64,000 nucleotides of DNA from Paraburkholderia sprentiae WSM5005 (GTDB taxonomy: Bacteria; Pseudomonadota; Gammaproteobacteria; Burkholderiales; Burkholderiaceae). Shown piece after piece: positions 2,182-40,551 of this stretch. The notes under the pieces were generated by a model that saw only the letters and a program-made list of their open reading frames with translations, made no database searches and was not told where the DNA came from. The position numbers were made by a program, and so were the translations under genes. Location of the stretch: contig NZ_CP017562.2 of the NCBI RefSeq assembly GCF_001865575.2, positions 2,294,001-2,358,000 on the forward strand. Reading direction: 5' to 3'. Every line of letters starts with the position of its first letter. Position 1 is the stretch's first letter.

Positions 2182-2366
2182 GCGAGCCTCGCAATGGGTT
2201 GGTCAACGGGGGAATCCGACGGCGGCAGTCGCGCAAGCCGTCGTCTCCGAGAGACTCGATAGCATAGCCGAGCAGGTGATAAGGTGGATCGCGAACATGA
2301 TCATTCGAACTTCTATAGCCGACACCAGCGACAGGCCGTGCCCGTCAGCCAATGCAACCTGGCTGT

Positions 2367-3796: not shown

Positions 3797-3950
3797 CGAC
3801 AAGACGTTGGCAAGACCGTGGCAAGAGTTTTTCTAACGCGAGTTCCCAATTTATCTGGTTTGTTAGGGCCCAACAAGAGAGATATTCTTCTCGGTGTAGT
3901 GCTGACTCCTCTCCCGCTCCGCTTGTCTGCCTTATCGGCCCGAAACCCAG

Positions 3951-24002: not shown

Positions 24003-24842
24003 TCAACTCACAAACGGCAACTTGCTGTCCCGCGCCTGCGCGAGCATCGAAACAGTGATCTTGCGGACTTCGAGCTTGCTCTGCGTGACATGCGCGCGCA
24101 GCATAATGCCCGCTTCGGCGAGCTTTCCGCGTTCGATCAGCGTGAGCATCGTGGCGTGCTCGTCGTAGGTCGCGTCGGTGCGATGCGGCTTGAGGAAATC
24201 GAGTCGTCGCACGATGCGAATGCGCTCGGTCACTTCGTCGTGCACGCGTAGCATTTCGGCGTTGCCCGTCGCTTCCACAAGCCCGCGATGAAAGCCTTCG
24301 TCGAGCCGGAACATGCGCGCCGGATCGGTCTCGCGTGCGTCGCGCGGCACGCACCAGATCGCCTTGAGCGCGTCGATCGCGCGATTGTTCGAGCCGCTCG
24401 TCACACGCTCTATAGCAGCCAGTTCGAGCACGATGCGCAGGTCGTACAGCTGATCGAGCCGCTCGAAGTCGATGTTGCACACTTTCCAGCCGCGCCGGAA
24501 GCCGACTTCCAGATAGCCTTCGCGTAGCAGACGGAACAGCGCGTCGCGCATCGGTGTGCGCGACACGCCGTAATACTGCGCGATGTCAGTCTCCGAGAAG
24601 CGATCGCCCGGAAACAGCCGGAAGTCGAAAATGTCCTGCTTGAGTTGCAGATACACCTGCTCGGCAAGCGGATTCGCGCCATAGACGACTTTCGACGCAT
24701 CAGGCGCCACGTCGTGGGGTTCGTCGATCGGGTCTTTAGCTTCGGTCAGCCGTTTGGGTTCGATGACCAGTCTCCTGCGAATCGTCCCGACATTATCCGC
24801 GTTTCCCGTGAGCGGCTTGCACGTCGGGCACATCGGGCGCAT
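24003..24842 (-). CDS. GntR family regulator (FCD domain)
   Basis: Up to 279 residues from the ATG at 24842. That start overlaps the preceding gene by 50 bases, so the first 50 or so residues may not be translated. No better ATG exists; a non-ATG start is possible. The wHTH is SETDIAQYYGVSRTPMRDALFRLLREGYLEV. The C-terminal FCD helices carry the metal-binding pattern DEGFHRGLVEATGN, YDEHATMLTLIERG and LRAHV. It is the last gene of the leftward allophanate operon and probably controls that operon or a related one. Confidence 0.87.
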   Translation of the reverse strand: MRPMCPTCKPLTGNADNVGTIRRRLVIEPKRLTEAKDPIDEPHDVAPDASKVVYGANPLAEQVYLQLKQDIFDFRLFPGDRFSETDIAQYYGVSRTPMRDALFRLLREGYLEVGFRRGWKVCNIDFERLDQLYDLRIVLELAAIERVTSGSNNRAIDALKAIWCVPRDARETDPARMFRLDEGFHRGLVEATGNAEMLRVHDEVTERIRIVRRLDFLKPHRTDATYDEHATMLTLIERGKLAEAGIMLRAHVTQSKLEVRKITVSMLAQARDSKLPFVS

Positions 24843-25242
24843 CGATCAGGCTCACGTGCGCAGCAACGACGATCCAGCCGCCGAACGGCGCATCGTGCGC
24901 GCCAAGCCGCGCCCACGACTGCATCTGACGGCCGACGAGCGGCGTGGCGTCGCTGGTGAACGTGGTGCTGACCGTCGCATAGTCGCGGCCGAACGTCGTC
25001 ACGACCGTGCGATGCCGTCTGCGCGAAGCCGGCACCGGCACGCACGATTCCCGCCACGCGCGAATCTCCTCGCCGCCGTGCTGGATTTCGGCAATTCCAT
25101 AACGTACCGTTTCCGGTGCCTCCCAGAACAACACGTTCATCGTGTCGATGTCGTTATCGACCAGCGCGCGTTCGTAGGCTTCGAATACGGCGGTCACTTC
25201 GGCGACGATCGCCGGGTCGTTGATGACAGGCGATGTGGTCAA
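24793..25242 (-). CDS. AtzH/HpxZ-like protein (DUF3225, NTF2 fold)
   Basis: 149 residues. The NTF2-like start ([24 protein letters not shown]) and [15 protein letters not shown] with a C-terminal [12 protein letters not shown] match the DUF3225 family. Members are HpxZ, in oxalurate catabolism clusters, and AtzH, known in cyanuric acid degradation to convert 1,3-dicarboxyurea to allophanate. The ATG overlaps the stop of the upstream cysteine hydrolase (ATGA). Being in one operon with AtzF-like and BiuH-like enzymes favours an AtzH-like role, but AtzE and AtzG, its usual partners, are not seen here. Confidence 0.82.
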
Positions 25243-25904
25243 GCGTCGGCCTCCAGCAATTGTTCGAGCGTCGCAGTCCAGCCGACGATGCCGCCTTGCG
25301 AACGGATCATCGCCAGCGTTGCTTCCTTGAACGCGGGAATGTAGCTCGCGGTCGCGCCTTCGATCACCAGACAGTCGTAACCGCGATCATTCGCTTCGCG
25401 CATCGAGGTCTGCACGCACACTTCAGTCGTTACGCCCGCAAACACGAGATGCGTGACGCCGCGCATCGCAAGCTCTTCGCCGAGCCGGGTCGCGTAGAAC
25501 GCACCCTTGCCCGGCTTGTCGATCACGAGTTCACCTTCAATCGGCGCAAGCGCGTCGATGATTGCATTACCCGGTTCGCCTCGCACGAGTATGCGTCCCA
25601 TCGGCCCTTTGTCGCCGATGCGCGCGCTCGGCTGCCCACGCAGACGTTTCGCCGGCGGACAATCGGACAGATCAGGCACGTGCGATTCGCGCGTGTGCAC
25701 GACGTGCCAGCCGTGCGTGCGCGCATGCGCGATCAGCCGCGCGACATCCGGCACGATGTCCGCGAGCAGCGACACGTCGTTGCCGAGCGCCGCGCCGAAT
25801 CCGCCCGCCTCGATGAAATCGCGTTGCATGTCGATCACGACGAGCGCCGTCTTCGACGGCTCGAACGCGAACGGCGACGGTAACGCCAGGTTGACGGTCG
25901 GCAT
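25239..25904 (-). CDS. Isochorismatase-family amidohydrolase (cysteine hydrolase), second copy in the operon
   Basis: 221 residues from the ATG at 25904. The Asp-Lys-Cys triad is complete: D25 in [10 protein letters not shown]130 in [10 protein letters not shown] and C163 in [17 protein letters not shown]. It shares with the BiuH-like protein of the same operon the long insert [17 protein letters not shown] and ILVRGEPG, so the two are paralogues, but the N-terminus and the substrate-loop residues differ. A related ureide or guanylurea-like amide is a plausible substrate. It starts five bases after the formamidase stop. Confidence 0.87.
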
Positions 25905-25909
25905 GGCAG

Positions 25910-26908
25910 TCACCCCTTGTAAGTGCGTTCCGGCGGTGCGAAGCCGCAAGGAGTGCCATCGGTCACGCGCACCTCGGCCTCCCAAGGCAAACGATATTCG
26001 CCGCGCACCATGTCATGCATGAACGTATAGGGGCAATCCTGCGCGCCGCCCTTCACCGCAACGTAGCCGCGGTGTCCGAACTGATAGATGTTGTTTTCGA
26101 CGCCCCAATGGATACGCGCCTCGCGCACGAGATCGGGCCGCATCTCGCAGACGATGACCTCGTCCGGGCGATGACTGCCCTCCACCAGCACCGTTCCGTC
26201 GAAATCGCAGAACATGCCCTCGCCCATCGAATCGAACGTGCCGTCGCTGCCGCACAGACAGACGCTCGCCGTCTGCGCGAGATTCTGGAACGCGTTCGAC
26301 TGATTGGTGATGCGCCACGCGTGGCGGATCGGCGCGGTGTATCCCGCCGTGCGCAGAATCACTTCTGCGCCCTTGTAGGCGGCTTCGCGCGCCATCTCCG
26401 GAAACATGCCGTCGTGGCAGATGATCAGGCCGAGCTTCACGCCGCGCGGCCCGGTGCAGACCGGCACACCGAGATTGCCCGGCTCCCACGGCTCGACCGG
26501 CACCCACGGATGCAGCTTGCGGTAGTAGAGCTGGATCACGCCTTGGTCGTCGATGATCAGTCCGCTGTTGTATGGATTGCCGCCTGGATTGCGCTCCATG
26601 ATCGAAAAGCAGCCCCAGACGCGGTGCTCGACGCACGCCGCCTTGAACGCGGCCACTTCGGGGCCGTCGAGGCTGCACATGATGGCGTCGTCGGTGCGCA
26701 TGGAAAGGCCATGCAACGCGTATTCTGGAAACACGACGAGATCCATCGCCGCGTTGTTGCGCCGCGCCTTGCCGACCAGTTCGACCACGCGCTGCGTCTG
26801 CGCCGCGAGTTGCGCGGGCGTTTCTACATTGGGATTCTGCAATTGCACTAGGCCGATTACGACGCCTGCGGGCGAGCGGTTCAATCCGCCGAGTCCACTC
26901 GAACTCAT
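25910..26908 (-). CDS. Formamidase-like / aliphatic amidase (nitrilase superfamily)
   Basis: 332 residues. The nitrilase-fold triad is visible: E62 in [12 protein letters not shown]131 in YYRKLHPW and C164 in [11 protein letters not shown]. The long conserved phrases [48 protein letters not shown] and the [15 protein letters not shown] tail are those of formamidase AmiF and amidase AmiE. These cytosolic enzymes release ammonia from short-chain amides. In an operon that ends at allophanate it may remove a formamide or formyl-type fragment. It lies between the ABC ATPase and a cysteine hydrolase with three- to five-base gaps. Confidence 0.88.
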
Positions 26909-26911
26909 CTG

Positions 26912-28546
26912 TCATGCTCCATGAAAGGCGGCGGCAGTGTCCGCCGCTGCGGGTTGCCAATCGTCGCCGTGGCCGGCCATGTGGCGCCCGAGCACCACGC
27001 GGTCCGCGTTTTCCACGGCGGTTTGGAAAACGAGCCGCCCTTCCGCGATTACTGCGATGCGGTCGGCCAGTTCCAGCAATTCGTCGAGGTCTTCGCTCAC
27101 CAGCAGCACCGCCGCGCCCGCGTCGCGCGCCGCGAGAATGCGCGCGTGTATATCGGCCACCGACGCGAAGTCGAGGCCGAACACCGGATTGGCGACGATC
27201 AGCACATCGACCGGCTGGCCGAGTTCGCGAGCCAGTACCGCGCGCTGCACGTTACCGCCCGACAGCGTGCCGATCGCGCGCTCCGGCACCGGCGGCCGCA
27301 CGTTGAACTCGGCAACGCGCTTTTCGGCGCGTTCGCGTAACGCGCGACGGTTGAGCCGCCAGCCGCCCGCGCGCAACGGCGCGCGATCGAAGTCGCGCAA
27401 CGCGAGATTTTCCGCGACGCTCAGATTCGCGACACACGCATTACGCAGCGGCTCCTCGGGCAACGCGAAGACTTTCAGGCGCGTCATCGCTTCGCGCGTC
27501 GCGCGGTACGCTTCTCCCTTCACGCGCATGTCGCCCGATCGCACGCTCCGCTGGCCGACCAGCGCCTCGATCAGCTCCTTCTGGCCATTGCCCGACACGC
27601 CCGCCAGGCCGAGAATCTCGCCCGCGCGCACCGCAAGCGACGCGTCGCGCACCGCCACGTGTCCGCGATCGTCCACCACCGTCAGCGCCGACAGTTCGAG
27701 CGCCACCGGCGCATCGGCGACAAGCGGCCGGCGCGCAGGCCGCACGTCGTCGATGCCGGCTGTCGCGCGCGCGTCGAAACCGGCGTCGCTGCCCATCATC
27801 CACGATGCGAGGCGGTCGCGGTCGGTGTCGCGCACCGCGCAACTGCCGACTAAGCGGCCCTTGCGCAGGACCGTGACGTCGTCCGCGTAGGCCATCACTT
27901 CGCGGAATTTGTGCGTGATCATCAGCACGGTGAGTTCGCTGCGCGTCGTGAGATCGCGCATGAGGCCGAGCACTTCGTCCGCTTCCTGCGGTGTCAGCAC
28001 CGAAGTCGGTTCGTCGAGAATCAGGAAGCGCTGACGCAGATACAGTTGCTTCAATATTTCGAGCTTCTGCTTTTCGCCGGCCGCGAGACTCGACACCGGC
28101 GTGTCGAGTGCGAGCCGGAACGGCATGCCGCGCATGAACGCGCCGAGCGCCTTGCGCTCGGCTTGCCAGTCGATTTTCCACGGCATCCGGCCACGCGCGA
28201 GAAGCAGGTTCTCTTCCACCGACAAACCCGCTGCCAGCGTGAAATGCTGGTACACCATGCCGATGCCGAGCGCCTGCGCATCGCGGGGCGAAGCAATGCG
28301 CACTTCGCGGCCGTCCGCGGCGATCTGGCCGCTGTCGAGCACGCCATAACCGACGAGACCTTTCACGAGCGTGCTCTTGCCCGCGCCATTCTCGCCGAGC
28401 AGCGCGTGCAGCGTGCCTGCGCGCACCTTGAGCGTCACGTCGTCGACCGCGCGGAAAGCACCAAAGCGCTTGCTCGCGCCGAGCACCTCGATGCCGAGCG
28501 CGCCGGTGTGTGACGGCAGCGGTTTCATGCTGGCGAGCGTCGACAT
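26912..28546 (-). CDS. Nucleoside-type ABC importer, ATP-binding protein
   Basis: 544 residues from the ATG at 28546 (an in-frame ATG at 28528 is the alternative), two ATPase domains. Domain 1: Walker A GENGAGKS at 51-58, signature LAAGEKQKLEILK, Walker B LILDEPTSVL. Domain 2: degenerate P-loop (GVSGNGQKEL) and signature LSGGNVQRAVLARELG. This is the BMP/NupA-type ATPase that serves permeases like those at 29288 and 30207. The biuH gene sits between the ATPase and its permeases, which ties transporter and enzyme to one substrate set. Confidence 0.9.
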   Translation of the reverse strand: MSTLASMKPLPSHTGALGIEVLGASKRFGAFRAVDDVTLKVRAGTLHALLGENGAGKSTLVKGLVGYGVLDSGQIAADGREVRIASPRDAQALGIGMVYQHFTLAAGLSVEENLLLARGRMPWKIDWQAERKALGAFMRGMPFRLALDTPVSSLAAGEKQKLEILKQLYLRQRFLILDEPTSVLTPQEADEVLGLMRDLTTRSELTVLMITHKFREVMAYADDVTVLRKGRLVGSCAVRDTDRDRLASWMMGSDAGFDARATAGIDDVRPARRPLVADAPVALELSALTVVDDRGHVAVRDASLAVRAGEILGLAGVSGNGQKELIEALVGQRSVRSGDMRVKGEAYRATREAMTRLKVFALPEEPLRNACVANLSVAENLALRDFDRAPLRAGGWRLNRRALRERAEKRVAEFNVRPPVPERAIGTLSGGNVQRAVLARELGQPVDVLIVANPVFGLDFASVADIHARILAARDAGAAVLLVSEDLDELLELADRIAVIAEGRLVFQTAVENADRVVLGRHMAGHGDDWQPAAADTAAAFHGA

Positions 28547-28548
28547 GA

Positions 28549-29241
28549 TCAGCGTCCGAGCGCCGCAATCAGCGCGCTGGAATCCGACACCGTGCCGAAC
28601 ACGCCGCCCTGCATCAGCACCATGTTCAGTGCCGCGTCGTGATTGCCCTTGTCGGTCGCGCCGCAGCAGTCGGCGAGAACCGTGCATTCGAAGCCGCGGT
28701 CGTTCGCTTCGCGCATCGTCGTATGCACGCACACGTCGGTCGTGATGCCGGTCAGCACCAGATTGACGATGCCGCGCGTGCGCAGAATGAGTTCGAGATC
28801 GGTGGCGCAGAACGAGCCCTTGCCCGGCTTGTCGATGACGATCTCGCCCGGCAACGGCGTGAGCTCGTCGATGATGTCCCAGCCGGGTTCGCCGCGCACG
28901 AGGATCTTGCCGCACGGACCGTCGTCGCCGATGCCGATGCCCTCCGTGCCCGCGCGGCGGCTGCGCCAGCGCTTGTTGGCGGGAAGATCCGACAGATCGG
29001 GCCGGTGTCCTTCGCGGGTATGAATGATGGTGAAATCCTGCTCGCGCATCGTTGCCAGCACGCGGCTGATCGGTTCGATCGGCGCGCGCGTCAGCGACAG
29101 GTCGTAGCCCATCTTGTCGACATAGCCGCCGATGCCGCAGAAGTCCGTCTGCATGTCGATGATGATGAGCGCCGTATTGTCGGCGCGCAGCGCGCCGTCG
29201 TAGGGCCACGGATACGGTCGGGCTTCGATGAAACGGGTCAT
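28549..29241 (-). CDS. biuH: Biuret amidohydrolase-like cysteine hydrolase (BiuH)
   Basis: 230 residues. It closely resembles, as I remember it, the rhizobial biuret hydrolase BiuH: the N-terminal [51 protein letters not shown] and [15 protein letters not shown] all follow that pattern. The triad is D29, K138 and C171. BiuH cleaves biuret to allophanate and ammonia, and the allophanate hydrolase needed next is encoded in the same operon at 32546. I am confident of the subfamily; exact substrate specificity needs an assay. Confidence 0.83.
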
Positions 29242-29287
29242 GTCGGACTCCGGTGAGACGAAAAGTAGGTGGATCGCTACGGCGTTC

Positions 29288-30214
29288 TTAGCGCGTGAGA
29301 CTCAGTTCACCGGGCGTACCTGCGAGCGTGCGATCCGGCCGGCAGTTGACGATCATGATTGCGAGCGTGAGCACGTACGGCGCGGCGTTGAACAGGTAGT
29401 AGCCGCTCGTTACGCCGATCGCCTGCAGCGCGGGGCCGAGTGCGCCGGCCGCGCCGAACAGCAGCGCCGCCCACAGACAGCGCAGCGGCTGCCAGCGCGC
29501 GAAGATCACGAGCGCGACGGCCATCAACCCCTGACCGCTCGACAGGCCTTCGTTCCAGCTGCCCGGATAGACGAGCGACAGATACGCGCCGCCGACGCCC
29601 GCGAAAAATCCGCCGAGCGCCGTCGCCGCGATGCGTACGCGCGTGATCGGATAGCCCATCGCCCGCGCGCTCTCCGCGTTTTCGCCGACGAGCCGCAGCG
29701 TCATGCCCCAGCGTGTGGAGCGCAAACCCCATTGCAGAACGAACGCAAGCACGACGCCGATCAGGAAGAGTGGATTCACATGCAGCGCGTTATGCAATTG
29801 CGGCGATGCGCTCCACGCGCCGAAGTCGAACGAGCGCAGCATCGCCGCCTGGGGCTCGATGAACGGCTTGCCGAGATAGAACGCGAGGCCGGTGCCGAAC
29901 AGCATCAACGCGATACCGAACGCGATGTCGGACACGCGCGGCAGCGAGCAGGCGAGTCCGTGCAGGCAGCCGAGCAGCAGGCCCGCGCATCCGGCAATCA
30001 GCACGCCCAGCCACGGCGAACCGGTCAGGTACGAGCCTGCGTAACCGCTCATCGCGCCCGACACGAGAATGCCTTCGAGCCCGAGATTCACGCGACCGCC
30101 CTTCTCGGTCAGGCATTCACCGAGGCTCACGAAAAGATACGGCGTGCTGACGCGAATCGCGCCCGCAAACAGCGAGAGCAGCAACACGGCAACGGGCGAG
30201 TGCAGATCAGGCAT
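29288..30214 (-). CDS. Nucleoside-type ABC importer permease
   Basis: 308 residues with about eight to nine hydrophobic segments and the BPD_transp_2 pattern of the BMP/Nup group: [20 protein letters not shown] near the N-terminus and [23 protein letters not shown] as the coupling loop. It overlaps the stop of the upstream permease gene by eight bases. With the next permease it forms a heterodimeric channel. Relatives import nucleosides, purines or ureides. Confidence 0.9.
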
Positions 30215-31340
30215 GAGTTTGCTCCAACGGATGCGGCAGTCCGGATTGCGCGACCGCCTGCAACTTCACGCGCCACGCGGCGAGCCGGCCGCCGAGCGCC
30301 TCCCACGCGAGCAGGTTTGCGAACAGCAGTCCTTGCAAGACGAGCGTCGTTGCGTCGGGCAGATCGAGGCGGCGTTGCAGCAGACTGCCGCTCGCCTCGA
30401 TGCCGCCGATCATCAGCGCGCACGCGATGATCGCGAGCGGATTCTGCCGTGCAGCGAATGCGACGAGGATGCCCGCGTAGCCGTAGCCCGCGAGCAGCGA
30501 CGCGTTCGCGCTGTCCTGCACCGCCGAGACTTCGAACATGCCGGCGAGTCCCGCGGCGGCGCCGCCGAGCACGCATGCGGTCAACGCGAGCGAGTTGACT
30601 GGCAGGCCGACGAGGCGCGCGGCGCGCGCGTTGCCGCCCGTCACGCGCATCGCGAAACCCTTGGTGCTGTGACGCACGAAGATCCACGCGCCGACGCACG
30701 CGAGCGCGCCCCAGAAGAGTCCCCAATGCACATCGAGTCCCGGCAGCGAGCCGATCGTGAACGCATCGGGCAGCGGCAGCGTCGACGGCTTGTTCAGGCT
30801 CGCCGGATCGCGCAACGGCCCTTCGACCAGATGCTTGAACAACGCAATCGCGATATACGACATCAGCAGCGAGCTGATGGTCTCGTTCACGCCGCGCCAC
30901 TGCCGCAGCGCGCCGACCGTGCCGATCCACGCACCGCCGACGATCATGCCCGCCAGCGCCATCGCGGGCGTCGCGACGAACCACGGCGTGCCGTGCGGCA
31001 GCAGTTGCGGCGTGACGGCCGCAGCGAGTCCGCCGAGCGCGAGCGCGCCCTCGCCGCCGATCACGATCAGGCCGACCTGCGCAGGCAGCGCCACGCACAG
31101 CGCGGTGAGCATCAACGGCGCGGCGCGCAGCAGCGTGCTCTGCCACGCGAACGCCGAGCCGAATGCGCCTTGCGCGATCAGCACGATCGCGTCGCCCGCG
31201 GGCTGGCCCTGCACGAGCAGAAAGATCGCGAACAGCAGCAGCGTGCCGGCGAGCGCCGCGAGCGTCGGCAGTGCGGGCAGCACGCCGAGCAGCGCGCGGG
31301 CAATGCCGGACGACGTCACCGTGGAAGCATGAGCACGCAT
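30207..31340 (-). CDS. Nucleoside-type ABC importer permease
   Basis: 377 residues, the longer permease partner, with an extra N-terminal segment (LPALPTLAALAGTLLLFAIFLLVQ) before the family core. Seen are GLIVIGGEGALALGGL, RGVNETISSLLMSYIAIALF, the coupling loop TKGFAMRVTGGNARAARLVGLP and YGYAGILVAFAARQNPLA. It lies 44 bases downstream of the binding-protein gene. All parts of a BMP-type importer are present in this operon. Confidence 0.9.
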   Translation of the reverse strand: MRAHASTVTSSGIARALLGVLPALPTLAALAGTLLLFAIFLLVQGQPAGDAIVLIAQGAFGSAFAWQSTLLRAAPLMLTALCVALPAQVGLIVIGGEGALALGGLAAAVTPQLLPHGTPWFVATPAMALAGMIVGGAWIGTVGALRQWRGVNETISSLLMSYIAIALFKHLVEGPLRDPASLNKPSTLPLPDAFTIGSLPGLDVHWGLFWGALACVGAWIFVRHSTKGFAMRVTGGNARAARLVGLPVNSLALTACVLGGAAAGLAGMFEVSAVQDSANASLLAGYGYAGILVAFAARQNPLAIIACALMIGGIEASGSLLQRRLDLPDATTLVLQGLLFANLLAWEALGGRLAAWRVKLQAVAQSGLPHPLEQTHA

Positions 31341-31384
31341 GGTCTCTCCTTCAGTTGCGCGAATTGCGCTGTCAGCACGCTGGA

Positions 31385-32482
31385 TCAGATCTGGCCCACC
31401 ACACCCGCGACGAGATAATTCATGCTTTCGAGCGTGATGTCGGTCTGAGCGTAGGCCGTGCCGGACGCGATCGCGGTGCCGTCCTTGTTGTCCTTCAGCG
31501 GGCCCTTGAAGATGACGAACTGGCCGGCCATCATCTGCGCCTTGACGGCGTCGGCTTTGGTCTTCGCGGCGGCCGTCACCCTGGCGCCATAGGGCGACAT
31601 CTTCACGAAGCCTTCCTTGAGGCCGCCGCGCAGAATATTGGGCTGCGGCGTGCCGGTCTGCGCGTCACTGACGAGCGTTTTGTACGGCGTTGCCCAGTCC
31701 CACTCGGCGCCTGTCAGATAGCCCTTCGGCGCGAGCGCCGCCTGGCTCGCGTGGTAGCCGCAGCTCATCGCGCCGCGCTTCTCCGCCGTTTCGATCACGA
31801 CCTTCGGACCGTCGACGTGGCAGGTCAGCACGTCGCAACCCTGATCGACGAGACTGTTGGTCGCTTCGGCTTCCTTGACCGGCATCGACCAGTCGCCCGT
31901 GAAAATGACGTGTGCCGTGATGGACGGATCGACCGACTGCGCGCCGAGCGTGAACGCATTGATGTTGCGCAGCACCTGCGGAATCGGCTTGGCCGCGACG
32001 AAGCCGAGCTTTTTGCTCTTGCTCATGTGGCCCGCGACGACGCCGTTCAGGTACTGGCATTCGTCGATGTAACCGAAGTAGCTCGCGATGTTCGACGGGT
32101 TGCCCTGCTTCCAGAGTCCGCCGCAATGCGCGAAACGCACCTTCGGATACCTGGCCGCCATCTTCAGCACGTGCGGATCGAAGTAGCCGAACGAGGTGGC
32201 GAACACGAGCGTCGCGCCGTCCTGTTCGATCATTGCTTCCATCGACTTCTGCGCGGCCACCGTTTCCGGCACATTCTCTTCTTCGACCACCTTCACGTTC
32301 GGCATCTTCTTGATGACCGCGGCGGCCTGGGCCTGCGCCTGGTTGTAGCCATAGTCGCCCTTCGAGCCGACGTAGATCACGCCGACGGTGAGCTTTTCGG
32401 CAGCGAACACGCTTTCGAGCGGCAGCAGGCTGCCGAGCGCGAACGCGCCCGCCTGCTTGATGAAGTCGCGACGTTGAGTCAT
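31385..32482 (-). CDS. BMP family ABC substrate-binding protein
   Basis: 365 residues. The N-terminus MTQRRDFIKQAGAFALGSLLP has a twin-arginine motif, so Tat export is likely, with cleavage near VFAAEK. The BMP (PnrA-like) fold shows in VGVIYVGSKGDYGYNQAQ, GATLVFATSFGYFDPHVL, FAHCGGLWKQGN, YFGYIDECQYLNGVVAGHM and VIFTGDW. Homologues bind nucleosides, autoinducers or ureides in the periplasm. It follows atzF by 63 bases, so the imported compound probably becomes allophanate. Confidence 0.9.
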   Translation of the reverse strand: MTQRRDFIKQAGAFALGSLLPLESVFAAEKLTVGVIYVGSKGDYGYNQAQAQAAAVIKKMPNVKVVEEENVPETVAAQKSMEAMIEQDGATLVFATSFGYFDPHVLKMAARYPKVRFAHCGGLWKQGNPSNIASYFGYIDECQYLNGVVAGHMSKSKKLGFVAAKPIPQVLRNINAFTLGAQSVDPSITAHVIFTGDWSMPVKEAEATNSLVDQGCDVLTCHVDGPKVVIETAEKRGAMSCGYHASQAALAPKGYLTGAEWDWATPYKTLVSDAQTGTPQPNILRGGLKEGFVKMSPYGARVTAAAKTKADAVKAQMMAGQFVIFKGPLKDNKDGTAIASGTAYAQTDITLESMNYLVAGVVGQI

Positions 32483-32545
32483 GGTGTGGTTTCCTTGAGT
32501 TGGTCGATCACTGCGTTCTGAATGCTCGATTTCCGATAACGGGCA

Positions 32546-34387
32546 TCAGGCGTTCGGCTGTGGCGCGCGGTGCGCGAGATACGCGCGCCAGCCGCCGTAA
32601 GCGGTAATGTCGAGAGCGCCCCCGTCGTGCGCGATCGCCGCGGGCTCACAGACGAAGCCCTTCACGCTGCGTCCGTCGATGGTCTCGAGCGTGCCGATGG
32701 CGAGCGGCGCGGGCACGGCGGCGACGAACGCGCCGAAGGTGCGCAGCGGCACTTCCCACAGTTCGATAGCGATGGCTTCGCCTCCTGCCGTGTCGTCCGT
32801 CCGGCGCACGAGGCCGGGTTTCGGCGGCAATGTGCCGGCGAGTGCATAGAGCCGGTAGTAAGGCGCAGTCGTCGTGGCTTCGACGAAGCGCGCGCCGGCT
32901 TGCCTCAGTTGCCAGTTCAACGGCTCGCCCCGCAGATGCGCACCGACCACGGCGAGCATGACGACCGGTTCCTGGATCGGCAGCGGCTGGCTCGCGATCG
33001 CGTCGGCATCGCGTTGCTCGACGGCTTCGCTGAACAGCGCCTGAATGCGCGCGCCGAGCACCGCGAGCTGCTGGTCCGCGCCCGATGGTCCGATCAGCGT
33101 CACGCCCGCAGGCAGACCGTCGGCGCGCGGCACGCCGGGCACGGCGAGCGCACACAGGTCGAGCAGATTGACGAAGTTCGTATAGACGCCCAGACGGCTG
33201 TTCACCTCCACCGGATTGGCCTGCACGTCGGCGATGGTCGGATGCGTCGGCGTGGTCGGCACGATCAGCACGTCGGCATGCTCGAAAAGCGCTGCGGCTT
33301 GGCGCCCCAGCCTCGCAAGCGCGTACTGCCCGTCGAACGCGGCGGCCGCATCGAAACGCTCCGCCTGGCCGATCACCTTCGCGACGGTTGTGTCGATATC
33401 GTGGTGATGCGTGATAAAAAACGTGCCGAGGGCGGCGCGACGCTCGGCCACCCACGGGCCGTCGTAAAGAAGCGCGGCGACCTGCTGCAACGGCGCGAAC
33501 GCGAATGTCGACGGCGTCAACGTGAGATGCCTGGCGATGCCATCCATGGTCGCGGCGAAGGCCGCCGATGCCTGATGGTCGTCGAAGAACGTGAGCGTGT
33601 CGGGAATCGCGATGCGCAATGGCGCGTGTTGCAAACCGCGCGAGGGCAGCGGCCTGGAGTAACCGTCGTGCGGGTCGTAGAACGCGAGCCGGTCGAGCAC
33701 TTGCCACGCATCGGCGACGTCGTGCGCGAACACCGACAGCGTATCGAGCGTGCGGCACGCCGGCACGACGCCGCGCTTGCTGACGAGCCCGAGCGACGGC
33801 TTGAGCCCCACCAGCCCGTTGAAGCCCGCAGGCACGCGTCCGGAACCCGCGGTATCGGTGCCGAGCGAGAACGCGGCAATGCCCGTCGCGACCGCAATCG
33901 CCGAACCGGAGCTCGATCCGCCCGACACGTATTCATCGCGCGTGATCTGACGCACCGCGCCGTACGGCGAACGCGTGCCGACGAGACCCGTCGCGAACTG
34001 ATCGAGATTGGTCTTGCCGACGAGAATCGCGCCCGCGTCCAGCAGACGCGCTACCGCGAACGCCGTTTCGTCCGGCGTGTAGGCGAAGGCATCGCATGCG
34101 GCGGTGGTCGGCAGGCCGGCGACGTCGACGTTGTCCTTCACCGCGAACGGCACGCCGAAGAGCGGCATGCGGGCGAAGAGCGCCGGGCCTTCGTCGGCGA
34201 GTAGACGTTCGAGTTCGGTGGCGCGCGCGACGAGCGAGGCTTCGGACACGCGAAGGATCCACGCTTCCGGACGATGCGTGGTGGCAAGACGTTGCAGCAC
34301 TGTGGCGACCGTGTCGCATGGCGATGTTTCGCCTTGACGATAAGCGTCCAGCAGCGCGCGAACCTTGAAGGGAGCAATGCGTTCCAT
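32546..34387 (-). CDS. atzF: Allophanate hydrolase (AtzF-type)
   Basis: 613 residues from the ATG at 34387. The N-terminal amidase-signature domain has the Ser-cisSer-Lys triad K84 (FAVKDNVDVAG), S158 (SGGSSSGSA) and S182 (TDTAGSGRVPAG). These are each seven lower than the K91/S165/S189 that I recall for the Pseudomonas ADP enzyme. A C-terminal domain (about 455-605) is of the AtzF type seen in bacterial allophanate hydrolases (PVVMLAVVGAHLRGEPLN, ITAYGGWRAYLA). The enzyme turns allophanate into ammonia and carbon dioxide. It heads the leftward operon behind a sigma-54-like promoter. Confidence 0.9.
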   Translation of the reverse strand: MERIAPFKVRALLDAYRQGETSPCDTVATVLQRLATTHRPEAWILRVSEASLVARATELERLLADEGPALFARMPLFGVPFAVKDNVDVAGLPTTAACDAFAYTPDETAFAVARLLDAGAILVGKTNLDQFATGLVGTRSPYGAVRQITRDEYVSGGSSSGSAIAVATGIAAFSLGTDTAGSGRVPAGFNGLVGLKPSLGLVSKRGVVPACRTLDTLSVFAHDVADAWQVLDRLAFYDPHDGYSRPLPSRGLQHAPLRIAIPDTLTFFDDHQASAAFAATMDGIARHLTLTPSTFAFAPLQQVAALLYDGPWVAERRAALGTFFITHHHDIDTTVAKVIGQAERFDAAAAFDGQYALARLGRQAAALFEHADVLIVPTTPTHPTIADVQANPVEVNSRLGVYTNFVNLLDLCALAVPGVPRADGLPAGVTLIGPSGADQQLAVLGARIQALFSEAVEQRDADAIASQPLPIQEPVVMLAVVGAHLRGEPLNWQLRQAGARFVEATTTAPYYRLYALAGTLPPKPGLVRRTDDTAGGEAIAIELWEVPLRTFGAFVAAVPAPLAIGTLETIDGRSVKGFVCEPAAIAHDGGALDITAYGGWRAYLAHRAPQPNA

Positions 34388-34407: not shown

Positions 34408-34422
34408 GTCGAGCGATGGAAC

Positions 34423-34438
34423 GCAGACTTTGTGCCAG
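34423..34438 (-). promoter_or_regulatory. Sigma-54 promoter of the atzF operon
   Basis: On the minus strand CTGGCACAAAGTCTGC has the invariant GG and GC exactly ten bases apart and matches TGGCAC-N5-TTGC with one mismatch. Predicted start is near 34411, 24 bases before the ATG. It matches the sigma-54 site at 35747 at 14 of 17 positions. The remaining gap 34439-34631 shows no gene. Confidence 0.7.
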
Positions 34439-34631: not shown

Positions 34632-35327
34632 TCAGGAGAAGATCGCTTCAATATCCGGCGACGCGTCTTTCACCTCGTCGAAGTTCAGTGTCGCTTCGAT
34701 ATGCTGCAGGTGTTCCAGCATGCTCGCCGCAGCCTTTGCTTCGTCATGCGCTTCGATCGCATCGATCAGATCACTATGCTCGTGATGCGGGCACGCCGGG
34801 GCGTTGGGCTTGTCGTAAAGCGTGATCACGAGGCACGTCAAAGGCGCGAGTTCTCGCATCATCCGCAACAGGATTTCGTTGCCGATCATCTCCGCGATCA
34901 GCACATGAAACTCTCCTGAAAGCCGGATGATGGCAGGCCGGTCATTCTGCTTGCGCGCGTCGCCTTCCTGCCGCACGTGCTTGCGTAACGCACGCACTTG
35001 CGCCGACGTCGCGGTGCGGCTCAACAGCCTGGCCATTTCCGGCTCGATCATGCGCCGCGTGACAAATACGTCGCGCGCCTGCTGGACGCTCGGGCTGGCG
35101 ATAAAGGCTCCGCGATTCGGCACCAGCTCGACCAGCCCCTCATGCGCAAGCTTGTTGAGCACTTCGCGAATCTTGGTCCGGCTCACGCCCGAGACTTCCG
35201 CGAGCCGCTCCTCAATCAATTTTGTCCCGGGTGCAAGGCGATGTTCAAGCACCGCCTTCTGGATGCGGCCATAGATTTCCTCGTTCGTAAACGGCGCCTT
35301 GGGCGCGGCAACTTTACTGGCAGGCAT
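34632..35327 (-). CDS. GntR family regulator (FCD domain)
   Basis: 231 residues from the ATG at 35327; the longer frame upstream runs through AT-rich promoter DNA and was rejected. The wHTH is EERLAEVSGVSRTKIREVLNKLAHEGLVELVPNRGAF. The FCD ligand domain keeps metal-binding His residues (GEFHVLIAEMIGN, HHEHSDLIDAI, MLEHLQHIE). It lies between the divergent atzF and hydantoinase operons, and copies of one palindrome flank it on both sides. It is the best candidate for the shared ligand-responsive regulator. Ligands of this group are usually small carboxylates or pathway intermediates. Confidence 0.9.
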   Translation of the reverse strand: MPASKVAAPKAPFTNEEIYGRIQKAVLEHRLAPGTKLIEERLAEVSGVSRTKIREVLNKLAHEGLVELVPNRGAFIASPSVQQARDVFVTRRMIEPEMARLLSRTATSAQVRALRKHVRQEGDARKQNDRPAIIRLSGEFHVLIAEMIGNEILLRMMRELAPLTCLVITLYDKPNAPACPHHEHSDLIDAIEAHDEAKAAASMLEHLQHIEATLNFDEVKDASPDIEAIFS

Positions 35328-35397
35328 GGCGGAGGCTCGGCTCAAAGGTTTCTCGCAACTGGGAAATGGATCGATGATAGAGCAATCACGAGCGATT

Positions 35398-35475
35398 TTG
35401 TACACAAAAATTCCGTGGAGCATTCGCATCGAAACCATGTTCATACGGAGGAAACCGCAAATTTGTTGTATGCAA
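35398..35475. promoter_or_regulatory. Two GntR-type operator copies upstream of the GntR gene
   Basis: TTGTACACAA at 35398-35407 (inside the longer palindrome TTTTGTACACAAAA at 35396-35409) and TTGTATGCAA at 35466-35475. The latter is the exact reverse complement of the copy at 35701. The first lies 70 bases upstream of the GntR start, fitting autoregulation. Confidence 0.6.
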
Positions 35476-35552
35476 ACATTCATTGGCGCTTGTCGGGTCT
35501 GACAACCTGCACCTCTTTCGCAGGCGCATTTTGGCCCGTGCGACAACCCTCG

Positions 35553-35591
35553 TTTGGTGCCAATGATTCAACTTTGGTGCGCATATGCACC
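35553..35591. promoter_or_regulatory. Candidate enhancer sites for a sigma-54 activator
   Basis: Two TTTGGTGC repeats (35553-35560, 35573-35580) are spaced 20 bases, two helical turns. The second is part of GGTGC-N6-GCACC (35576-35591). The distance to the predicted start near 35773 is about 190-220 bases, usual for an upstream activating sequence. GCACC/GGTGC half-sites resemble NtrC sites, although the order is inverted here. Confidence 0.35.
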
Positions 35592-35700
35592 GGCTTCCCC
35601 CATGCGCTTTTATCGTAGTTTCCGCCATGATCCATTGCCGTTCGTTCCAGCGAAGGTGCTCAGGAAGCAGCCGTTTCCGCTGTCGAACGCACGTCCGGCG

Positions 35701-35731
35701 TTGCATACAATCTCATTGTTATTGCGTACAA
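35701..35731. promoter_or_regulatory. Two GntR-type operator copies upstream of the racemase-hydantoinase operon
   Basis: TTGCATACAA at 35701-35710 and TTGCGTACAA at 35722-35731 are 21 bases apart, two helical turns on the same face, and end 16 bases upstream of the sigma-54 site. They belong to the TTGnnnnCAA family seen at 35398, 35466 and 34398. Confidence 0.6.
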
Positions 35732-35746
35732 ATTCGCAGATTTATG

Positions 35747-35763
35747 TTGGCACAAAGCTTGCG
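35747..35763 (+). promoter_or_regulatory. Sigma-54 promoter of the hydantoinase operon
   Basis: TTGGCACAAAGCTTGCG matches the TGGCAC-N5-TTGC consensus, with GG and GC ten bases apart. Predicted start is near 35773, about 50 bases before the ATG at 35822. Sigma-54 use fits a nitrogen-scavenging operon. Confidence 0.72.
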
Positions 35764-35821
35764 TCAAAAGATCCAGCAAGCATCTTTCTCTGGCGCGGTC
35801 CGCCAGAAGCAACCCCTTGAT

Positions 35822-36559
35822 ATGGAAATCATGACGCAACGCACTCTGATTGGCATGTTGACCCCGTCTTCCAACACGGTTCTCGAGCCGGTCACTTCGG
35901 CGATGCTCGTGGGACTGCCCGACGTCAGTGCGCATTTCGGACGCTTTCGGGTGACCCAGATCGCACTGTCCGAACAGGCGCTGGCCCAGTTCGACGACGA
36001 GGAAATTCTCGGCGCGGCAGGGTTGCTCGCCGATGCCAAGCTAGACGTAATCGGCTGGAACGGGACATCGTCGGGCTGGCTCGGGTTTGAGGCAGACGAG
36101 CGTCTGTGCCGCAGCATCACAGAACGCACCGGCATTGCCGCCTGCACCTCCGTGCTCGCGCTCAACGAGGTTTTCGCCATGACGGGCGTGCGTCGCTTCG
36201 GTCTGGTCACACCATATCGCGACGACGTGCAGGCAAAGGTCATGTCGACGTATGCCGGCGCGGGCTTTGAATGTGTCGGTGAACGTCATCTAAACAAGCA
36301 GGACAATTTTTCGTTTTCGGAAGTCAGTGCCGACACGTTGCGTGAGATGGCACGTGAAGTCGCAAAGAGCAAACCCGACGCGATTACGATTTTCTGCACC
36401 AATCTGCGCGGCGCGCCGCTCGCTGAAGAGCTCGAAGCCGAACTCGGCATTCCGGTGTACGACACCATCTCGACGGTGGTCTGGAAAGCACTGCGGACGA
36501 GCGGCATCGATACGTCGCGCGTCACCGGCTGGGGCAGCCTGTTCCGGGAGGTCGCATGA
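35822..36559 (+). CDS. Asp/Glu racemase superfamily protein (maleate isomerase/AMDase-like)
   Basis: 245 residues from the ATG at 35822 (a second in-frame ATG at 35831). The family start IGMLTPSSNTVLEPVT carries the first-lobe SSN substrate loop. The first-lobe Cys region is not the standard racemase form (IGWNGTSSGWLG), while a second-lobe Cys is present (ITIFCTNLRGAPL). This one-Cys pattern recalls arylmalonate decarboxylase or maleate isomerase relatives more than two-Cys hydantoin racemase. The stop overlaps the hydantoinase ATG (ATGA), so the two products probably act in sequence. Confidence 0.83.
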   Translation: MEIMTQRTLIGMLTPSSNTVLEPVTSAMLVGLPDVSAHFGRFRVTQIALSEQALAQFDDEEILGAAGLLADAKLDVIGWNGTSSGWLGFEADERLCRSITERTGIAACTSVLALNEVFAMTGVRRFGLVTPYRDDVQAKVMSTYAGAGFECVGERHLNKQDNFSFSEVSADTLREMAREVAKSKPDAITIFCTNLRGAPLAEELEAELGIPVYDTISTVVWKALRTSGIDTSRVTGWGSLFREVA

Positions 36560-38046
36560 GCGACGCGGCGGCCTTCGACCTCGTGATCCGCGACGCGGAT
36601 ATCGCCACGGCGGCCGACCGCTTCACCGCCGACATCGGCGTGCGCGACGGGCGCATCGTCGCGCTGGGCAGCGGACTGGCTCAGGGCGCCAACGAGATCG
36701 ATGCAGGCGGCCGCCTCGTCACTCCAGGCGGCGTGGATAGCCACTGCCACCTCGATCAGGACACCGGCGACGACAGCGTGATGGCCGACGACTTCCTGAG
36801 CGGCACGGTTTCCGCTGCCTGCGGCGGCACCACCACGGTGATTCCTTTTGCGTGCCAGCAGAAGGGAAATACGCTGCGTGCGGCGATCGATACGTACCAC
36901 CGACGCGCCGACGCCCGCGCGGTGATCGACTACGCCTTCCATCTAATCGTCACCGATCCCACGCCGCATGTGCTCGAACAGGAGCTGCCGCAACTGATCG
37001 AAGAGGGTTATACGTCGTTCAAGATCTACATGACGTATGACGCGCTCAAGCTGAACGACCGTCAGTTAATCGAACTGCTCGCATTGGCCCGCGTCCACGG
37101 CGCCATGGTGATGATTCATGCCGAAAACGCCGATTGCATTGCGTGGCTCACCGAAGCGCTGCTGGAGCAAGGCATTACCGCGCCGATCGGGCATGCGCTG
37201 TCCCGCCCGATGCTGGTTGAGCGCGAAGCGACGCATCGCGCCATCAGTCTCGCGCAGCTGGTCGACACGCCCGTGCTGATCGTGCACGTCTCCGGCCGCG
37301 AGGCGATCGAGCAGATTCGCTGGGCGCAAGGACAAGGCCTCGCCGTCTACGCCGAGACATGTCCGCACTATCTGCTGCTGACCGAAGACATGCTCGAAGA
37401 TGGCCCTCGCGGCTATCAATGTATCTGCAGTCCGCCGCCGCGCGACGAAGGCAACCGCCAGGCTGTCTGGGACGGTCTCATGAACGGTACGTTTCAGGTG
37501 CTCTCCTCCGACCATGCGCCGTTCCGCTTCGACGGTCCGCACGGCAAGCAGGTGGCCGGCGAAAACCCGCGCTTCGACCAGGTGCCCAACGGCATACCGG
37601 GTCTCGAGACGCGCATGGCCTTGCTGATGTCCGAAGGCGTCATGAACGGACGCATCGACATTCACGCCTTCGTCGCATTGACCGCAACCAATGCGGCGAA
37701 GCTCTACGGCCTTTATCCGCGCAAGGGTTCAATCGCTATCGGCGGCGACGCCGATCTGGTGATCTGGGACACGGATCGTGCCTTCACGCTCACCAACGAT
37801 GCGCTGCACCACAACGTCGACTACACGCCGTACGAGGGTTGGCAGATGAAAGCGTGGCCAGCGCTGACGCTCTCGCGTGGTGACGTAGTGTGGGACGGCG
37901 TGCAGCCCAGCGGCACGCGCGGCCGCGGCCAGTTTCTGCCGGCCTTGCGCCCGCAACAGGCGCAACCGCATCGGCCGTTGAACCCACGCCTTGACGCGCA
38001 CCGGGTGCTACCGCGCTTTGACTTTCCCGCCGTCTATCGCAAGTAG
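36556..38046 (+). CDS. hydA: Dihydropyrimidinase / D-hydantoinase
   Basis: 496 residues of the cyclic amidohydrolase family, with the full binuclear metal site: H63 and H65 in DSHCHLDQD, the lysine to be carboxylated K156 in SFKIYMTYD, H188 in MIHAENAD, H244 in VHVSG and D319 in SSDHAPF. It opens six- or five-membered cyclic ureides (dihydropyrimidines, hydantoins) to N-carbamoyl acids in the cytosol. The Gln in HLDQD (often HLQ or HFQ) is kept. It is coupled to the racemase-family gene. The next step, a carbamoylase, is not in this operon; an M20 carbamoylase-type gene occurs at 56656. Confidence 0.9.
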   Translation: MSDAAAFDLVIRDADIATAADRFTADIGVRDGRIVALGSGLAQGANEIDAGGRLVTPGGVDSHCHLDQDTGDDSVMADDFLSGTVSAACGGTTTVIPFACQQKGNTLRAAIDTYHRRADARAVIDYAFHLIVTDPTPHVLEQELPQLIEEGYTSFKIYMTYDALKLNDRQLIELLALARVHGAMVMIHAENADCIAWLTEALLEQGITAPIGHALSRPMLVEREATHRAISLAQLVDTPVLIVHVSGREAIEQIRWAQGQGLAVYAETCPHYLLLTEDMLEDGPRGYQCICSPPPRDEGNRQAVWDGLMNGTFQVLSSDHAPFRFDGPHGKQVAGENPRFDQVPNGIPGLETRMALLMSEGVMNGRIDIHAFVALTATNAAKLYGLYPRKGSIAIGGDADLVIWDTDRAFTLTNDALHHNVDYTPYEGWQMKAWPALTLSRGDVVWDGVQPSGTRGRGQFLPALRPQQAQPHRPLNPRLDAHRVLPRFDFPAVYRK

Positions 38047-38155
38047 GAATGGCTCTGCGGGCTCGCGCGAAACGTGCAGTGCATTCGGCACCTTCCGCGC
38101 CGCCTTACACGCTGTCTTTGTAACGTACGTACTGTTATTTTCTCTGGAGAGCCTG

Positions 38156-39013
38156 ATGTCCGAACGATTTTCGCGTCGCCAATTCCTCCATCGTGCCGGC
38201 GCGGCTGCAGCCATGGTGTCGATTGGCCTGCCCCGCTTTGCGATGGCCGCCGGGCTCACGCTTGACGACATCAAGAAGGCCGGCGTGCTGCGCATCGGCT
38301 GCGAAGCGACCTATCCGCCGCTGACGTATCGCGACGCGAGCGGCGCCATGATCGGCTACGACGTGGATCTCGCCAACGCGTTTTGCCGCAATCTCGGCGT
38401 CAAGGCGCAGTTTATCGACACGGTCTGGTCGGGTGTGATTCCGTCGCTTTACACGAAGAAGTTCGATCTGGTGATGAGCAGCCTGAGCTACACGGCCGAG
38501 CGCGAGAAACACGTGGACTTCTCCGTGCCTTACGTCGAGGCCTCGCAGGCGCTGCTGATTCGCGCGGCGGATCTGAAGAGCGTCGCCAGCCTCAGCGGCA
38601 TGAACGGCAAGGTGCTCGGACTCAAGCTCGGCTCGCCGGGGCAGATACTCCAACCGAAGCTCGATGCGCAACTGAAAGCAGCGGGCGGGGCGGGTTTCAA
38701 GGAAGTAAAGACCTTTGACGACCATCCGGCCGCCTATATCGCGCTGGCAGAAGGCAAAGTGGACGGCGTGCTCAACACATTGCCGACGCTTTCGCTCGTT
38801 CTGAAGAATGCGCCGGGCAAATACGCTATCGTCAAGGGCATTGGCGCGGATAACTGGGCAGGCATCGCGGCACGTACGGATGACACCGCGCTGATCGGCT
38901 TCATTGACCAGCAGCTGCGCAAGTTCAGAACAGACGGCACGCTGCATACTTTGCAGCAGAAGTGGTTTGGTTTCGACATGAACTTGCCGGATGCGATTCC
39001 GGTGCTGTCCTGA
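38156..39013 (+). CDS. Amino-acid-type ABC substrate-binding protein
   Basis: 285 residues from the ATG at 38156. The twin-arginine leader SRRQFLHRAGAAAAM and AMAAG cleavage region suggest Tat export. It is a type-II SBP_bac_3 fold: KKAGVLRIGCEATYPPLTYRDASG, MIGYDVDLANAFCRNLGV, DLVMSSLSYTAEREKHVDFS and WFGFD at the end. It captures a polar amino acid or N-carbamoyl amino acid for the permease and ATPase that follow. Confidence 0.9.
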   Translation: MSERFSRRQFLHRAGAAAAMVSIGLPRFAMAAGLTLDDIKKAGVLRIGCEATYPPLTYRDASGAMIGYDVDLANAFCRNLGVKAQFIDTVWSGVIPSLYTKKFDLVMSSLSYTAEREKHVDFSVPYVEASQALLIRAADLKSVASLSGMNGKVLGLKLGSPGQILQPKLDAQLKAAGGAGFKEVKTFDDHPAAYIALAEGKVDGVLNTLPTLSLVLKNAPGKYAIVKGIGADNWAGIAARTDDTALIGFIDQQLRKFRTDGTLHTLQQKWFGFDMNLPDAIPVLS

Positions 39014-39026
39014 GAGCGCGGCGTCC

Positions 39027-39674
39027 ATGGACTGGAGCATTATCGTCATGGCGTTGCCGATCCTCGCGGTCGGCCTGCTCGCCACGCTGAAGGTTTGCCT
39101 CGCGGCCATCGCGATTGGCATCGTGCTCGGCTTCGCGCTGGGTTTCGGTGCGCTCAGCCGCTTCAGGGCGGTTCGCATCGCCATACTGGCGTATGTAGAT
39201 TTCGTGCGCGGCACACCGCTGCTCGTGCAGATCTTTCTCGTCTATTTTGCGCTGCCCGTCATCGGCATCAACTTCAACGAGTACTGGGCCGGCGTCATTG
39301 CGCTCAGTCTGAACGCGGGAGGTTTCATCTGCGAGATCGTGCGCGCCAGCATGCAGTCGGTCGATCGCGGCCAGACTGAAGCCGCGCAATCGATCGGCAT
39401 GCGTCACGGCCAGATCGCTCTGCACGTGCTCTTTCCGCAAGCGTGGCGGCGCATCCTGCCCCCGCTCACCAACGAACTAATCTCGCTAATCAAGGGCTCG
39501 GCGCTGCTGTCCGCGATCTCCGTGTATGAACTCACGCACGCCGGTCAGGAAATCATCGCAACGTATTTTTCGCCGTTCGAGATTTTCCTGCTGATCGCCC
39601 TCTACTACTACGCATTGATCTCGGCGCTGGCGTGGCTGTCGCGCTACCTCGAACGGCGACTGCCGCAATACTGA
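39027..39674 (+). CDS. Amino-acid-type ABC permease
   Basis: 215 residues from the ATG at 39027, with about five membrane segments and the HisM/GlnP-type pattern: [35 protein letters not shown] and the EAA coupling loop [24 protein letters not shown]. There is a single permease gene, so a homodimer is expected. It starts 13 bases after the binding protein stop. Confidence 0.9.
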
Positions 39675-39678
39675 CTTC

Positions 39679-40530
39679 ATGAGCTCGGGTTCCCGCATGT
39701 CTTCCACAGTTACCGTCTCTGACCTGTCCGCGGCGTCCGCTAAGGACGCCGCCGCGCGCGTGCATGAAGGGGGGGCTGCAACGCTGCTGTCCATAGAAGG
39801 GCTGCACAAGCGCTTCGGCGACAAGGTCATCCTGCCCTCCGTCACACTGGACGTCGGGCACGGCGAGACCGTGGTGCTGATCGGGCCGTCGGGTTCGGGC
39901 AAGACCACGCTGCTGCGCTGTCTCAACTTCCTGGAAAGACCGGATGGCGGCACGATCCGCCTTGGCGGCCAGCGTATCGGGTTGTCGGAGCAAGGCCGCG
40001 CGCTGCCCGAAGCCGAACTGGCGCGGCAGCGCAGCCGCTTCGGCTTCGTGTTTCAGCGCTTCAACCTGTTCGCGCATTTAAGCGCGCTGGATAACGTCGC
40101 CGCCGGCCCGCAGCGCGTGCTGGGACTCTCGCGCGACGCGGCCCGCGCTCGCGCACAAGTTGCCCTGGAAAAAGTCCACCTCGCGCAGCATGTCAACAAG
40201 CGGCCAGCGCAACTCTCGGGCGGCCAGCAGCAACGCGTGGCGATTGCCCGCGCACTCGCGATGGAGCCGCAGATGATCCTGTTCGACGAGCCGACGTCGG
40301 CGCTCGACCCGGAACTCGTCAACGAAGTGCTCGACGTGATGCGCGATCTCGCCGCGGCCCGTATGACGATGATGGTGGTGACACACGAAATGAGCTTCGC
40401 GCGCAACGTGGCGCATCGGGTGGTGTTCATGGACGCCGGCGCCATCATCGAACAAGGCACGCCCGGCGACGTCTTCGGCCGTCCGCGCGAAGAGCGCACG
40501 CGGCGCTTCCTGCAGCACCTGCACACCTGA
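39679..40530 (+). CDS. Amino-acid-type ABC ATP-binding protein
   Basis: 283 residues; an alternative ATG lies six codons in. The first 35 residues form a Ser/Ala-rich extension not usual for GlnQ/HisP relatives. Walker A is GPSGSGKT at 69-76, the signature is [15 protein letters not shown], Walker B is [16 protein letters not shown] and the switch His lies in [22 protein letters not shown]. It completes the importer with the two genes before it. Confidence 0.9.
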
Positions 40531-40551
40531 ACCGAACCGGACCACTGGCTG

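Follow-up and report, generated by a model that had tools for sequence, protein, structure and literature searches.

A predicted operon for the use of triuret and biuret, with a BMP-type importer and a formamidase relative, in Paraburkholderia sprentiae WSM5005

A bacterial pathway in which triuret is degraded through TrtA, TrtB, BiuH and AtzF was published in 2020 (PMC7948467), and a combination of trtA, biuH, atzF and trtB with bmpA-nupABC was predicted in 2025 in floodplain ammonia oxidisers, from metagenome genomes (PMC12625717). Here, a related operon is described from P. sprentiae WSM5005, in a 64,000-nucleotide stretch of contig NZ_CP017562.2 (positions 2,294,001 to 2,358,000, assembly GCF_001865575.2) that is referred to as the window. 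This operon very probably represents a nitrogen-scavenging kit for triuret and biuret. Its genes, located by open reading frame and profile searches, all lie on the minus strand between positions 24003 and 34387 (Table 1), in the order atzF, substrate-binding protein (SBP) gene, two permease genes, biuH, ATPase gene, amiF, trtA, an atzH-like gene and gntR; every gene that a preliminary description of the window had named on this single strand was found where it had been placed. The atzH-like gene directly follows trtA, a TTGA overlap joining the stop of the one to the start of the other. The genome (7.84 Mb, 5 contigs) is 99.99% complete, and the nearest named relative for the operon is Paraburkholderia fynbosensis, with 98% identity across the importer and BiuH.

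As in the system published in 2020, TrtA, BiuH and AtzF occur together without AtzD. The main text of that report, however, does not contain 'formamid' and has 'transporter' only once, in a reference (PMC7948467), whereas the operon in the window includes both a formamidase relative and an importer. The ammonia oxidiser system has the same enzymes and a BMP-type ATP-binding cassette (ABC) importer on one contig, but no formamidase is named in the main text of its report (PMC12625717). An operon on plasmid NC_012854 of Rhizobium leguminosarum WSM1325 (locus L001) likewise carries genes for an SBP, two permeases, a formamidase, BiuH, an ATPase and TrtA. It differs in that a gene for AtzD lies between those for BiuH and the ATPase, a cupin gene follows TrtA, and the formamidase gene precedes BiuH, while the formamidase relative of the window follows the ATPase; the AtzH-like gene and AtzF, both present in the window, do not occur in the WSM1325 stretch. 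Formamidase is already annotated beside biuH in public records. A literature search, beyond which most subscription papers lay, returned nothing relevant on triuret or biuret paired with formamidase, the single paper for biuret and formamidase being apparently unrelated, judging from its title and abstract; within the searchable papers, no match was found for the pairings formylbiuret/azauracil/biuret or oxonate/allantoxaidin/biuret, and formylurea together with a bacterial hydrolase led only to the TrtA paper (PMC7948467). The operon core, including its association with a BMP importer, has been described before (PMC12625717). What is added here is a conserved sigma-54-like site, a binding-protein pocket with His and Asp in place of two Asn residues, and a formamidase-type (AmiF) gene that appears to be an optional module tied to BiuH.

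Table 1. Features of the predicted triuret and biuret operon; positions refer to the window.
Feature	Position	Strand	Basis
AtzF, allophanate hydrolase (amidase + AH_C), 613 amino acids	32546..34387	-	NF006043 822 bits (cut-off 487); TIGR02713 749 bits (cut-off 511); PF01425 + PF21986; start ATG 34387
BMP-type substrate-binding protein, AtzT-like	31385..32482	-	PF02608; 6PI5 198 bits, 3S99 196 bits; pocket mapping
ABC importer permease 1	30207..31340	-	PF02653
ABC importer permease 2	29288..30214	-	PF02653
BiuH, biuret amidohydrolase	28549..29241	-	NF050097 404 bits (cut-off 370); 6AZO 394 bits
ABC importer ATPase, two cassettes	26912..28546	-	PF00005, two stretches; start ATG 28546
AmiF-type formamidase relative	25910..26908	-	NF009803 550 bits (cut-off 406); 5G3O 371 bits
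TrtA, predicted triuret hydrolase	25239..25904	-	6XIX 317 bits; 15/15 TrtA residues; start ATG 25904
AtzH-like protein	24793..25242	-	PF11533 155 bits; 2OWP 200 bits; AtzH 6BJT 97 bits
GntR/FCD transcriptional regulator, last in run	24003..24842	-	PF00392 + PF07729
Sigma-54-like -24/-12 element, TGGCACAAAGTCTGCG	34422..34437	-	2 mismatches; ends 34 bp before atzF ATG

Two cysteine hydrolases are encoded in the operon, BiuH and a second protein that scores below the BiuH NF050097 cut-off (253 versus 370 bits). The best solved relative of this second hydrolase is 6XIX, which is TrtA from Herbaspirillum sp. BH-1 (PMC7948467), and the BiuH chains 6XJM and 6AZO reach 214 and 200 bits. Residues named as catalytic, binding or discriminating in the TrtA report (PMC7948467) were compared at 15 positions (D24, F29, F35, N41, E72, K129, K132, A134, V157, T158, E160, C162, Y187, Q202 and I205). 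The window protein is identical to TrtA at all 15, six of which discriminate against BiuH, and it keeps the catalytic Asp24-Lys129-Cys162 as well as the TrtA-type second-shell residues. By comparison, positions 35, 41, 134, 160, 187 and 205 are Y, Y, S, D, T and V in BiuH of the window, which is thus unlike TrtA at all six; the first five changes (F35Y, N41Y, A134S, E160D and Y187T) are the BiuH letters used in published mutants (PMC7948467), while the sixth is Val for I205. Aligned with each other, this BiuH and the second hydrolase are identical at 102 of 221 residues. Judged by these residues, the second cysteine hydrolase is TrtA, and the two residue sets argue for one copy of each enzyme in the operon. 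The full TrtA residue set also suggests that no new main substrate is needed and that triuret would suffice.

With BiuH and AtzF clustered with TrtA and both above their family cut-offs, the following route can be proposed. The BMP importer would bring in a planar ureide, and TrtA would take one ammonia off triuret to yield carboxybiuret. Carboxybiuret loses CO2 unaided, with a half-life of about 20 minutes, or through TrtB where this protein is present (PMC7948467); in the window, the AtzH-like protein probably speeds this decarboxylation to biuret. BiuH is then predicted to convert biuret to allophanate, and AtzF to convert allophanate to ammonia and CO2. Through a sigma-54-type promoter before atzF and the GntR regulator, the operon probably responds to nitrogen limitation and to its substrate. 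The main route does not require the AmiF-like enzyme, which seems to be an optional extra; it probably supplies BiuH with substrate or acts on a compound that enters through the same importer.

Such operons were compared at 112 loci, of which 84 were found through TrtA (the best 80 of 584 matches and 4 plasmid matches) and 27 through AmiF, the window being the last. Genes for the SBP, both permeases, BiuH and the ATPase were all present at 90 loci, referred to as complete operons; at most one identical core protein was common to any pair of these, which speaks against double counting of records. AmiF was present in 31 of the 66 complete operons found through TrtA and absent from the stretch in the other 35. 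Of the 90 complete operons, 35 lack the AmiF gene and 47 carry it ahead of biuH; it follows the ATPase gene in 4, namely the window and related Burkholderiaceae, and precedes the SBP gene in another 4. In one genus, five loci have it upstream of the SBP gene at a distance of some 0.4 to 5.3 kb. A FastTree tree of the importer and BiuH requires at least 16 changes in AmiF presence. The four copies after the ATPase gene form one clade in the AmiF tree but require two changes on the core tree. An operon with atzF and formamidase was also found on a plasmid of Enterobacter kobei (L003, NZ_CP043515) that is typed as conjugative (IncFIB), with an IS1 transposase gene flanking the operon at each end, and may accordingly be mobile.

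Genome samples were drawn from the order (399 genomes) and the phylum (396 genomes). In the order sample, AmiF was found in 17 genomes and BiuH in 35, with all 17 AmiF genomes among the 35 (hypergeometric 1.4e-20, uncorrected for kinship). AmiF lies inside the operon in 16 of the 17; in the remaining genome (G342) AmiF and BiuH are on different contigs and AmiF has an internal stop. AmiF was found in 15 genomes of the phylum sample, 4 of them already counted, and BiuH accompanied it within the fetched 19 kb at 10 of the 11 new loci. Over both samples, BiuH thus occurs in the same stretch at 26 of 28 distinct AmiF loci. Strict confinement of AmiF to the operon core was rejected, as BiuH is missing from the stretch at L222 and at L146, the latter with an internal stop codon in AmiF, and as five loci of one genus have AmiF at some distance upstream of the SBP gene.

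Downstream of the ATPase gene, trtA was absent from seven AmiF operons whose stretch extends for 5 kb or more beyond it. Four of the seven genomes were searched for TrtA. In G176, AmiF occupies the place of trtA and the sole TrtA-like match at E <= 1e-65 is 54% identical; G214 and G175 have a TrtA of 69% and 68% on another contig, and G442 has one of 56%. Taken together with the counts above, these operons indicate that it is BiuH, and not TrtA, with which AmiF is associated. The formamidase-like gene of the preliminary description is therefore a real and recurrent part of such operons, and it appears to be an optional module tied to BiuH that can take three positions.

A search with the AmiF-like protein gave 4430 matches at E <= 1e-60 among 5.8 billion proteins. 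The 61 AmiF-type proteins compared, from all AmiF loci among the 112 except L146, show no variation at the positions equivalent to the catalytic residues Glu60, Lys132 and Cys165, and alignments with the formamidases 5G3O and 2DYU show this triad to be kept; the Glu of the PWVPVEPW motif is present in 60. The invariant Glu-Lys-Cys indicates that this protein is probably an active amidase of its family. The operon consensus is 51% identical to 5G3O, with 62 positions that are at least 95% conserved for another residue. Fixed differences from the Bacillus enzyme are found near Tyr191 (I188T, S189A, S192T and T193A), at W208F, and at Y227D, Y228S, F229M and Q233M; these residues presumably line or shape the pocket.

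Two functions can be considered for the AmiF-type protein. It could be a conventional formamidase that uses free formamide and is retained as a further nitrogen-scavenging enzyme, a role that would be compatible with the triuret pathway. The formamidase cut-off that it passes and its invariant catalytic residues make this a serious possibility, although one short of an even chance, given that AmiF occurs almost only beside BiuH in the genomes sampled and that its fixed differences fall next to Tyr191 and at 227-233. Rather more tentatively, the AmiF-type proteins might form a new group of formylated-ureide hydrolases that convert N-formylbiuret or formylurea to formate and biuret or urea, in which case AmiF would be a third interchangeable entry to biuret catabolism beside TrtA and AtzD. 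Such an entry might extend to ring-opened 5-azauracil or oxidised pyrimidines.

The preliminary description had proposed that the operon may degrade another imported compound, such as an N-formylated or amidino-substituted form of biuret or urea; on this reading, such a compound would be the main substrate and would be cut first by the AmiF-like enzyme. This is consistent with the presence of BiuH in each of the 17 AmiF-bearing genomes of the order sample, with AmiF standing in the place of TrtA in G176, and with formylurea ranking first, at 0.3%, among the side substrates of TrtA (PMC7948467). It is nevertheless unlikely, since TrtA is present in the window with its full residue set, and since the 35 of 66 TrtA-selected operons without AmiF suggest that the operon works without this enzyme. 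Moreover, family scans of the genes in the run revealed no guanidine-type enzyme, and nothing seen points to an amidino-substituted compound. The part of the proposal concerning the main substrate is thus replaced by triuret, while a formylated ureide may possibly enter at the side through the AmiF-like enzyme; the proposed import followed by conversion of biuret to allophanate and ammonia without AtzD is probably right.

Two other identities for the second cysteine hydrolase are very improbable, namely a guanylurea hydrolase and a duplicate of BiuH, the latter implied by its earlier designation as an extra BiuH paralogue. The protein does belong to the same isochorismatase-like family as these enzymes, and guanylurea hydrolases are up to 65% identical to other family enzymes, among which triuret hydrolase is named (PMC9800807). 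With all TrtA discriminating residues in place, the BiuH letters absent and a score under the BiuH cut-off, the protein matches TrtA instead, in a comparison that covered TrtA and BiuH but no guanylurea hydrolase (GuuH) sequence.

The genes of the cyanuric acid route were searched for genome-wide. The AtzD profile PF09663 had no match in the whole window genome, although in a control set of 300 genomes from the order it matched 22, and the AtzD protein of plasmid NC_012854 had no match either. Twelve AtzE family matches were found in the genome, none over the cut-off (best 285 versus 425.75 bits). The AtzG model gave no match in any genome tried, controls included; the second control genome proved ill suited, its operon lacking AtzE. 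An amidase of the AtzE/GatA superfamily is encoded at 54228-55661 on the plus strand of the window (247 bits against the same AtzE cut-off). AtzD was present in the fetched stretch of 9 of the 90 complete operons and lies inside the WSM1325 operon, which suggests that it is an optional module that the window genome seems to lack. These same occurrences would fit a cyanuric acid operon that has decayed or been split, with AtzD elsewhere, an explanation that is made highly implausible by a genome with neither an AtzD family match, under a working control, nor an AtzE above cut-off. The failure to find AtzD leaves the known triuret pathway as the best reading.

The substrate of the importer can be approached through its binding protein, which among solved structures is closest to AtzT (6PI5). 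AtzT comes from the Pseudomonas sp. ADP atrazine plasmid; it contained guanine and binds 2-hydroxyatrazine as well (PMC6834077). The window SBP keeps Tyr45, Ser97, Phe98 and Trp194 of AtzT, but has Gln for Glu165, His for Asn218 and Asp for Asn220, which represents a different ligand pattern. In the binding proteins of the 90 complete operons the aromatic sandwich is kept, with Tyr (76), Trp (12) or a gap (2) at position 45 and Trp194 in all 90, and Ser97 is kept in 88 (2 gaps). The changes to His at 218 and Asp at 220 are found in all 90, and Glu165 is replaced by Gln (75), Ser (9) or Thr (4), with 2 gaps. This pattern suggests that the ligand is planar but distinct from guanine; it could be triuret or biuret. 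In a Herbaspirillum frisingense metagenome-assembled genome (L054), a second ABC importer, of the SsuA/NMT1 kind by eye, is located at 1316-4417 between atzF and the BMP genes.

The AtzH-like protein also scores above the HpxZ model cut-off (139 versus 135 bits), and its Tyr 23 and Arg 47 align with Tyr22 and Arg46 of AtzH. The reaction proposed for AtzH in Pseudomonas sp. ADP is the decarboxylation of 1,3-dicarboxyurea formed by AtzEG (PMC6219798). In 33 of the 90 complete operons, AtzH is present while AtzE is absent from the stretch. Furthermore, 54 of these operons have AtzH only, 11 the cupin gene only, 25 neither and none both (Fisher p 1.4e-5, a value that overstates independence because the cupin loci are mostly alphaproteobacterial). 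Both observations would be expected if either protein carries out the same step, so that the AtzH-like or the cupin protein could each serve as carboxybiuret decarboxylase, and the AtzH-like protein of the window is a possible carboxybiuret decarboxylase in the role of TrtB. A plasmid of Paroceanicella profunda (L004) carries a TrtA-like gene (61%) with AtzE family amidohydrolase, DUF4089 and AtzH-like genes; no BiuH was found in this stretch, as if AtzEG handled carboxybiuret.

A scan of the window for sigma-54 sites did not exceed chance (27 matches versus 31.7 expected). Upstream of the 84 operons with enough upstream DNA, however, sites with GG and GC ten bases apart were found with 0 mismatches in 13, at most 1 in 35 and at most 2 in 60, against 0%, 0.9% and 4.9% of shuffled regions (20 shuffles per region, approximately keeping dinucleotides); since related operons are not independent, these figures show conservation and do not amount to a p value. 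A sigma-54-like site thus appears to be conserved upstream of such operons, and it is this conservation alone that supports the site in the window. A second GntR-FCD regulator (34632-35546, minus strand) separates the operon from another on the plus strand (35585-41910), which encodes an AMDase/Asp-Glu-racemase-like protein, a dihydropyrimidinase (TIGR02033, 528 bits, cut-off 393), an amino-acid-type ABC importer and a TRZ/ATZ-like amidohydrolase that falls under every cut-off. A similar sigma-54-like site, TGGCACAAAGCTTGCG, with 1 mismatch, is found near its start (35748-35763), and solely this similarity suggests a link to the triuret pathway.

Several points weigh against the operon being a triuret and biuret kit. 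The activities of TrtA, BiuH and AtzF here are predictions from sequence, and the AmiF-like gene is left unexplained by the triuret route. The characterised member of the AtzH family is thought to use a different substrate, 1,3-dicarboxyurea; lineage explains part of the AtzH/cupin pattern, and some of the fetched stretches stop early at contig ends. The promoter site in the window, with its 2 mismatches, would not stand out on its own.

Taken as a predicted scavenging system, this apparently odd operon gains likely substrates in triuret and biuret, compounds that enter soils with urea fertiliser and can form on uric acid oxidation (PMC7948467). One clear question is thereby isolated, namely why a formamidase relative recurs beside BiuH, and once where TrtA would be. 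If AmiF does cut a formylated ureide, bacteria would be using an unrecognised group of natural nitrogen compounds.

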